34,433 nt of DNA from Actinomycetes bacterium (GTDB taxonomy: Bacteria > Actinomycetota > Acidimicrobiia > Acidimicrobiales > Bog-793). The notes beneath the pieces were generated by a model that was given only the letters and a program-made list of their open reading frames with translations, was not told where the DNA came from and made no database searches. Position numbers and translations under genes: made by a program. The stretch spans positions 1-34,433 of the forward strand of contig JAKCCH010000026.1 in NCBI GenBank assembly GCA_021838945.1, given 5' to 3'. Positions 2,424 to 34,433 of this stretch are shown here, one piece after another; the stretch's first letter is position 1, and every line of letters begins with the position of its first letter.

Positions 2424-3560
2424 TCAGCGACCGGAGGGAGTCGGGCCGGAGGGAGTCGGTGCCGTGGGGTGGCGCTTTGCCCGCCGCGCCGGCCCGAAAA
2501 GGAGCCGAGCAAGCCCGCGCCGCTCGGTCACGCCCGGTTCCGCGTGGACGTAGTAGCCGACAGGGAAGAGGTGGATCGGCACCTTCGAGACGAGGGTCCC
2601 CCAGAGCCCCCTGCGCGCCCAGATCGCGATGGCCATGGCGACAGCTCCGAGGATGATGAGGTACCAGGCGTTGTACTGGGCGAGCGTCTGTTGCAGGACG
2701 ATGAATACGATCGAGCCGACGATCGGGCCCTCGATCGTGCCGAGGCCGCCGATCAGGACGGCGAAGATCATGTAGGCCGTCCACTGCACGTTGAAGACGT
2801 TGCCCGGCTGGACGTTCAGCTGGCTGATGGCGATCATCGCACCGGCCCCCGCACAGCCGCCGGCGGCGAGCATGTAGACCATGCGTTTCGCACCGGTGAC
2901 GCGCGAACCGATGCTGCGCGCCCCCACCTCGTTGTCACGCACTGCCGTGAGCACAAGCCCGAGACGGCTCCGCAACAAGAGGTACACCGCGACGATCGCG
3001 AGCACGGCCACGGCGAGGGCTGCCCAGTAGGTGTAGGCGCCGAGCAGGGTCGCCCCGATGTTGCCGAGCCCCGGGAGGGGCGCGCCCGTGCCCCCTCCGA
3101 GCGAGGGGTAACGCAGCACGAGGAGGTAGGCGACGACAGCCAGCACCCACGTGGCGACGGCGAAGTACGCACCGGCCAGCCGGAGGACGAGGAAGGACAC
3201 TGGATAGGCGAGCACGACCGAGACGCCGACGGCGATGAAGATCGCCACGAACGGCTCGATCCCGTGCTGAGCGGCGATGAGGACGGCGTAGGCACCCACC
3301 CCGATGTATGCCTGCTGGCCGACCGAGACGAGCCCTGCGTAGCCCGCCAGCGCGTTCCACATCGTGGCGATCGTCACGAGGATGAAGAAGTTGACGAGGG
3401 TGCTCGTGAGCGACTGGTAGACGACGTACGGCATCACCGCGAGGAGGACCACGAGGACGATGCCGAGCACGCCGGCCCAGGAGGCCGGCCTGCGGGAGCG
3501 GCTCACGACGAAGACCGGCTCGGCTGCGACCCGCTCTGGCCTGAGAGCGAGGTCGCTCAT
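2424..3560 (-). CDS. livM: Branched-chain-type ABC transporter permease, LivM family
   Basis: Inner-membrane permease of 378 aa from the hydrophobic amino-acid uptake (HAAT) family. It has many transmembrane helices and the LivM landmarks NALAGYAGLVSVGQQAYIGV (about 69-88), RSRLGLVLTAVRDNE and AVLIGGLGTIEGP. An extra N-terminal segment of about 30 polar residues precedes the first helix, and a basic Pro/Thr-rich tail follows the last. It pairs with LivH and overlaps it by 4 bp (ATGA), so the two are translationally coupled. Although the family name refers to leucine, HAAT systems also carry urea, amides and aromatic acids. Because pobA follows 11 bp later, an aromatic substrate is inferred. 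Confidence 0.9.
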   Translation of the reverse strand: MSDLALRPERVAAEPVFVVSRSRRPASWAGVLGIVLVVLLAVMPYVVYQSLTSTLVNFFILVTIATMWNALAGYAGLVSVGQQAYIGVGAYAVLIAAQHGIEPFVAIFIAVGVSVVLAYPVSFLVLRLAGAYFAVATWVLAVVAYLLVLRYPSLGGGTGAPLPGLGNIGATLLGAYTYWAALAVAVLAIVAVYLLLRSRLGLVLTAVRDNEVGARSIGSRVTGAKRMVYMLAAGGCAGAGAMIAISQLNVQPGNVFNVQWTAYMIFAVLIGGLGTIEGPIVGSIVFIVLQQTLAQYNAWYLIILGAVAMAIAIWARRGLWGTLVSKVPIHLFPVGYYVHAEPGVTERRGLARLLFGPARRAKRHPTAPTPSGPTPSGR

Positions 3561-33575: not shown

Positions 33576-34187
33576 CTACGCCGTCGTCGCTAGAGCGGTG
33601 CGGCAGAAGGCGAGGCCCAGCCGGAGCGCCTCGTCCCGGTCCATGCCGGGTTCGCCGGTCACGACCCGAATCGACAGGCCATCGAGCAGCGAGGTGCAGA
33701 CCGTGACGAAGTCGTCGATCGCTTCGACGACGAAGATCTGCTGTTCGCAGCCGGCAAGGACGATCGCTCGGAGGTCACGCTCCCACGCCTCGTCCATCTC
33801 CGCCTGTGCCCGCCGGGCATCCTCGTCGGCTCCGGTGAGATCCCAGAGCGCAGTCCAGAGCGTCCAACGCGGATCGCCGCGCCCCGTCGGCAGGTAGAGC
33901 TCGAGAAAGGCGACGAGGGCGGACCTCGGATCTGCCGAGCTTCCCACGATCCGGGAGCGCTCGAGCGTGAGGTCGGCCTCGCTCGCCCGGAGGGCCTCGA
34001 GGAGCAGCCGCTCCTTCGTCCCGAAGTAGTAGAGGAGATGGCCGGGGCTCATGCCGGCCCACTTGCCGATCTGTGCGACGGACAGGTTCGAGGGGCCCTG
34101 CTCAGCGATCGCCGTGATGGCGGCGTCGACGGCTCGCTTGCGTGCACGGCGCCCCTTCTCCCGAAGTCGTGGCCCGGGTTCGGTGAT
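33576..34187 (-). CDS. TetR family transcriptional regulator, apparent ATC start
   Basis: With this start the protein is 203 aa, the normal TetR length. The DNA-binding domain is complete: RKRAVDAAITAIAEQGPSNL, then SVAQIGKWAGMSPGHLLYYF and GTKERLLLEAL. The C-terminal part (ALVAFLELYL, RWTLWTALWDL, DDFVTVCTSLLDGL) is the usual ligand and dimer domain. No ATG, GTG or TTG exists in frame between the TAG near 34247 and the ATG at 34052, which lies inside the recognition helix and would destroy the domain. ATC 34187-34185 has a perfect AGGAGG 8 nt upstream, so it is either a rare ATC start or a mutated ATG/GTG. It is divergent from an amidohydrolase gene, its likely target. Confidence 0.75.
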   Translation of the reverse strand: MTEPGPRLREKGRRARKRAVDAAITAIAEQGPSNLSVAQIGKWAGMSPGHLLYYFGTKERLLLEALRASEADLTLERSRIVGSSADPRSALVAFLELYLPTGRGDPRWTLWTALWDLTGADEDARRAQAEMDEAWERDLRAIVLAGCEQQIFVVEAIDDFVTVCTSLLDGLSIRVVTGEPGMDRDEALRLGLAFCRTALATTA

Positions 34188-34232
34188 GCCCTCGTCCTCC
34201 TCTGACCCTCCGGGCCTCGGTGCGGCGCGATC

Positions 34233-34261
34233 TTGACTGTGATTCTAGAACATAGTACAAG
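34233..34261 (+). promoter_or_regulatory. Promoter of the amidohydrolase gene with an embedded palindrome
   Basis: TTGACT (34233-34238) and TACAAG (34256-34261) are spaced by 17 bp, a good sigma-70-type arrangement. The expected transcription start falls at or just before ATG 34269, so the mRNA may be leaderless or nearly so. The spacer contains the palindrome TTCTAGAA (34243-34250), a candidate operator for the divergent TetR protein. Confidence 0.6.
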
Positions 34262-34268
34262 AAGGTGT

Positions 34269-34433
34269 ATGGCTCCCGTGGACCTGGCGATCGTCAACGG
34301 CCGGCTCTGGACCGGCGAGGCTGCCAGAGGGGACTGCTCCGCCGTTGCGGTGCGAGGCGACAGGATCGTGGCGGTCGGCTCGGATGCCGACATCAGATCG
34401 CTCGTTTCGCCCTCGACGGAGGTGATCGACGCG
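34269..34433 (+). CDS. Amidohydrolase family protein, N-terminal part (cut by window end)
   Basis: The first 55 codons are present. VDLAIVNGRLWTGEAARGDC, AVAVRGDRIVAVGSDADIRS and PSTEVIDA match the N-terminal beta-sandwich strands of amidohydrolase_3/YtcJ-like metal-dependent hydrolases. The metal-binding HxH motif normally follows after about 15 more residues and lies beyond the window. AGAAGG precedes the ATG closely. The divergent TetR gene probably regulates it. The substrate cannot be told. Confidence 0.8.
   Translation, partial: MAPVDLAIVNGRLWTGEAARGDCSAVAVRGDRIVAVGSDADIRSLVSPSTEVIDA

Follow-up and report, generated by a model that had tools for sequence, protein, structure and literature searches.

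Where does translation of a repressor gene begin when its reading frame offers none of the usual start codons ahead of the DNA-binding domain? The question is raised by a gene near the edge of the window, by which we mean the whole 34,433-nucleotide stretch of DNA that was analysed, one entire contig of an acidimicrobial draft genome (3.04 Mb, 178 contigs, 80.9% complete). The frame lies on the minus strand, opens at 34244 after a TAG at 34247-34245, and runs for 222 codons to a stop at 33578-33576. ATG, GTG and TTG are absent from its first 64 codons, 45 of which follow from a particular ATC triplet on. An initial annotation had described a TetR N-terminus without any of these codons before the recognition helix, together with an ATC at 34187-34185 placed 8 nt from an AGGAGG; both statements held when the sequence was re-read, with every coordinate right and the first canonical codon falling at 34052. 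The features of the locus are collected in Table 1.

Table 1. Features of the tetR locus and its divergent neighbour (window coordinates)
Feature	Position	Strand	Basis or remark
TetR/BetI-type repressor CDS, read from ATC	33576..34187	-	203 codons + stop; open frame, Pfam domains, homologues at most 47% identical
First in-frame canonical codon, ATG = residue 46	34050..34052	-	at recognition helix; no Shine-Dalgarno of at least 4 bases before it
Out-of-frame GTG, start required by the indel explanation	34145..34147	-	sequence
Proposed start codon, ATC	34185..34187	-	within two codons of the commonest homologue start
AGGAGG Shine-Dalgarno	34196..34201	-	spacer ACGAGGGC, 8 nt to ATC
Operator-like site CTTGACTGTGATTCTAG	34232..34248	+	matrix rank 1, 16.1 bits; other strand rank 2
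Second operator-like site CTTGTACTATGTTCTAG	34245..34261	-	rank 3, 7.9 bits; overlaps the first by CTAG
Divergent amidohydrolase-like gene, cut by contig end	34269..34433	+	ATG at 34269; PF22039, E 1.5e-6

The frame encodes protein well ahead of its first canonical codon. Counted from the ATC, residues 20-65 match PF00440 (TetR_N; E 3.6e-11, 43.1 bits against a cut-off of 24) and residues 87-199 match PF13977 (TetR_C_6, the BetI-type C-terminal domain; E 6.5e-17, 62.2 bits against a cut-off of 27), so that a helix-turn-helix and a BetI-like ligand-binding domain are both present and place the protein in the TetR family with a BetI-type C-terminal domain. Homologue alignments begin at residues 1-22 of the repressor; these alignments, together with the TetR_N match, show that the sequence upstream of the ATG at 34052 is coding. 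That ATG is nonetheless the choice of any gene caller limited to ATG, GTG and TTG, and if it alone were used the product would be a 158-residue protein with an incomplete helix-turn-helix. We take the codon, from the TetR fold, to mark the start of the recognition helix, a position that makes it an implausible start for a DNA-binding protein. The first TetR_N helices would be lost, the codon has no Shine-Dalgarno sequence, and residues conserved among homologues (A23, A28, E29 and G31) lie upstream of it, all of which leaves exclusive use of the internal ATG as the least probable explanation considered here, very nearly negligible. With gene callers of this kind the repressor would accordingly begin only at residue 46, and its helix-turn-helix would be destroyed.

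How much weight should be placed on the missing start codon itself? Within the genes called in the source genome, ATG, GTG and TTG together make up 5.8% of codons, a frequency at which a run of 64 codons without any of them has p of about 0.02 and a run of 45 codons p of about 0.07. Taken alone, then, the absence of a canonical start is unusual, not extraordinary. The Shine-Dalgarno sequence is a separate matter. Across 282,803 bp sampled from this genome AGGAGG stands 5-10 nt ahead of 28 of 7615 ATC triplets (0.37%), and from this background the single in-frame ATC of the expected start zone would be so equipped by chance about once in 270. Among all near-cognate codons (ATC, ATT, ATA and CTG) ahead of the first canonical one, the ATC at 34187 is the only one with a Shine-Dalgarno sequence of at least 5 bases. 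The locus thus combines the two attributes by which a non-canonical start may be recognised: no in-frame ATG, GTG or TTG gives the whole protein, and a near-cognate codon with a strong Shine-Dalgarno sequence occupies the homologous start. Folding of the leader RNA was unremarkable (z 0.89), scans of 34100-34433 for a sigma-70 consensus promoter and for a terminator were both empty, and an exact-pattern search of the genome for the 16S 3' end gave no match.

A wider sample of the genome, 576,984 bases including the window and containing 412 genes with their 5' end inside, was examined for similar cases. A coding score of at least 10 ahead of the first canonical start was found in three of the 412, a count that rests on calls from a custom codon-score script, for which part of this sample also served as training data, with approximate gene boundaries, some rows that are overlapping frames on opposite strands, and lower scores that are noise. 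The TetR gene alone among these three high-scoring genes has a six-base Shine-Dalgarno sequence before a near-cognate codon, so in the part of the genome sampled, genes do not generally start at AUC. The idea that ATC starts might be common in the source genome is unsupported by these 412 genes. The other two of the three lie elsewhere in the sample. At L186 (10076-10597) a C-terminal MR/MLE fragment without a start lies directly after a TauE gene and is probably a gene remnant; at L208 (3100-4158) a GGDEF gene has about 49 coding-like codons upstream of its first ATG, with the domain lying wholly after that ATG.

The position of the ATC can be judged against homologues. An alignment scan confirmed 556 loci, and 80 from Streptomyces (39-47% identity) were kept and their starts read in every case; 23 further homologue loci are left out of this count. 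With the ATC numbered q1, 79 of the 80 have ATG, GTG or TTG between q-10 and q16, and in 40 the start falls at q3, two codons past the ATC position. Positions were reckoned from where the tblastn match starts (often residues 9-16), ignoring gaps, and so carry an error of a few residues. Homologue starts are therefore placed where the ATC is. The possibility that relatives start further upstream, which had been named as grounds for abandoning the ATC, was examined on the same 80 homologues, and their starts lie at the equivalent place and not, as a rule, upstream. The one exception among the 80, a homologue from Streptomyces diastatochromogenes (L109), is without an in-frame canonical start in the region 2950-3060: its C-rich stretch differs in length from that of L108, which puts its GTG out of register with the TetR frame, a displacement that is a sequencing error or a mutation.

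L109 exemplifies a frame-displaced start, and a comparable origin may be imagined for the present gene, with translation beginning at the out-of-frame GTG at 34147-34145, or elsewhere, and entering the TetR frame through an indel or a programmed frameshift. A partial Shine-Dalgarno-like sequence, GGAGAAGGGG, does lie upstream of this GTG. However, the explanation requires an indel or a slip just after the GTG, in a stretch devoid of homopolymers, it yields an N-terminus shorter than that of most homologues, and it offers no reason for the perfect AGGAGG at 34201. We regard it as highly improbable, only marginally less so than use of the internal ATG.

A simpler concern is that an ordinary gene, truly starting with ATG, has been recorded with ATC through a base error or a mixture of strains in the assembly. 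The draft is fragmented into 178 contigs and the ATC lies 246 nt from a contig end; it is one base away from ATG, and homologues are canonical at that position. The displacement of L109 relative to L108 shows that such artefacts or mutations do occur in the records. Close orthologues were sought at several depths. Best matches reached at most 34% identity in 98 relatives and in 397 genomes of the order, and at most 35% in 395 genomes of the class; the best homologue in the phylum search was 44% identical, and the closest overall, from the Streptomyces alignment set, 47%. There was no second genome of the same genus among the relatives searched. A protein search of a collection of genome contigs returned 205 pattern matches with no relative confirmed, and one of viral contigs returned 21 with none confirmed. 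Because the ATC is unshared and no homologue is closer than 47%, a base error or a recent mutation retains some probability. Against an error, the 381 bases around the site recur in the genome only as short weak matches, of which the best covers 38 bases at 84% in a paralogue, and so show no sign of repeat collapse; it is also rare a priori for an error to strike just the third base of a single start codon. On balance a faulty base call or strain mixture seems unlikely, though it is the strongest of the competing explanations.

Further information comes from the 81-bp intergenic region that separates the tetR ATC from the ATG of the divergent gene. The latter matches PF22039, an imidazolonepropionase-like composite domain, and has a 51% paralogue in the same genome as well as relatives in the family. 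A matrix of operator sites was built from 62 sites in all 24 of the 24 closest Streptomyces loci, and both strands of the window (68,834 positions) were scanned with it; the three best matches in the window all fall within the 81-bp region. The matrix itself contains Streptomyces sites only, but the motif was chosen by eye from those loci after the window's intergenic sequence had been seen, and since it was picked with that sequence already in view this support for an operator is not blind. In the Streptomyces loci (L061-L084) the conserved motif CTTGAA[CT]GnC[AG]TTC[AT]A[AG] occurs at about 2820-2920, upstream of the tetR match at 3001. In 18 of these 24 loci two copies are spaced by 20 bp, versus 13 bp in the window. 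The same motif is found at L037 between tetR and a divergent gene for a cytosine/purine permease.

These operator-like sites bear on another reading of the unshared codon, namely that an ATG mutated recently to ATC and that the gene is now decaying or only leaking. The ATC was found in the source genome alone, in none of the 80 homologues, as a recent change would predict. All 203 codons are nonetheless intact, both domains score above their Pfam cut-offs, and the operator-like sites have been kept. An intact frame and retained sites argue against a dead gene, and to judge from its sequence tetR looks intact. A recent mutation is somewhat less likely still than a base error, and the idea shades into the reading preferred here, since an AUC behind a full Shine-Dalgarno sequence would be expected to leak.

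That preferred reading is that a full-length TetR repressor is translated from a real, functional AUC start at 34187, weak and sensitive to IF3, and we consider it probable, though by no means secure. The complete AGGAGG 8 nt upstream would hold the 30S subunit while initiator tRNA pairs imperfectly with AUC; initiation would be weak, and IF3 would depress it further, as it may do for infC of the same lineage. Few repressor molecules would be made from such a start, and their number would be kept low. Repressor would then bind the two overlapping palindromic candidate sites in the 81-bp region and from there could control both divergent promoters. Initiation at AUC, control by IF3, a low level of product, binding to DNA and response to a ligand are what we infer for this gene, and the low expression in particular would follow by analogy with the precedents of infC and sigR. 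A more speculative extension, which we put forward tentatively and hold to be rather unlikely, is that AUC initiation in this uncultivated lineage reaches beyond infC to a TetR gene that has taken up AUC behind a full Shine-Dalgarno sequence, with the level of IF3 setting the number of repressor molecules and hence the activity of the divergent catabolic-type gene. If true, the repressor would act locally as a sensor of start-codon fidelity or of translation capacity.

The non-canonical start of infC is known to be autoregulatory, and other such starts have precedents in pcnB (AUU) and in infC of Myxococcus (AUC). To see what this lineage does, infC was matched in 56 of 60 genomes and read at 30 loci (L141-L169 and L060), namely the source genome itself and 29 relatives of the order. 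The codon at the start position is ATC in 20 of the 30 and ATA in the other 10. In 22 of these loci the interval from the upstream stop to the protein match is free of in-frame ATG, GTG and TTG; the remaining 8, the source genome included, carry an in-frame canonical codon farther upstream. In the source genome this is a GTG twelve codons upstream, and the start context is the one common to family members that lack any canonical codon. The behaviour of infC suggests that the lineage does initiate at AUC. The proposal of ATC as the tetR start stands in part: it is favoured by the position of homologue starts, by the complete Shine-Dalgarno sequence and by the ATC and ATA of infC, and weakened by an ATC that not one of the 80 homologues shares, 79 of them using ATG, GTG or TTG at that place.

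How does the tetR gene compare with systems already known? Among its own homologues, the Streptomyces PF13977 genes (L037 and L061-L084) resemble it in sequence (at most 47% identity), in the operator motif and, where it was read (L037), in the divergent arrangement; they differ in their canonical start codons, and L037 differs in having the permease as divergent partner in place of an amidohydrolase-like gene. In infC, as in tetR, AUC replaces a canonical start, and in the source genome both genes open with ATC ACC. The two differ in that the ATC or ATA of infC is conserved across the order, whereas that of tetR has been met in a single genome, and in that infC is autoregulatory while a link between IF3 and the tetR ATC is conjectural. 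Searches of an open-access library on TetR genes starting at ATC, on non-canonical starts with IF3 or infC, on all-codon initiation and on proteogenomics with ATC listed no AUC-started TetR gene. AUC and AUU are treated in PMC10158994. According to PMC5472188, few bacterial genes with non-canonical starts have been described experimentally, the infC of Streptomyces starts with ATC, and non-canonical starts of the infC and sigR kind are repressed by IF3.

The closest tested parallel to the tetR start is sigR of Streptomyces, which begins with GTC behind the Shine-Dalgarno sequence AGGAGGTG and is repressed by IF3; changing the GTC to ATG, GTG or TTG leads to overproduction of the regulator (PMC5472188). 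Both genes encode actinobacterial transcription regulators, both have a non-canonical start with a complete AGGAGG-type Shine-Dalgarno sequence, and for both there is a plausible reason for scarcity. The differences are that the sigR start is GTC rather than ATC, that it is conserved across Streptomyces and has been tested in vivo, and that sigR encodes a sigma factor, belongs to an operon and also yields an isoform from an upstream ATG. If the AUC start is real, the genes with a level that depends on start-codon fidelity would include, besides infC and sigR, a local transcription repressor.
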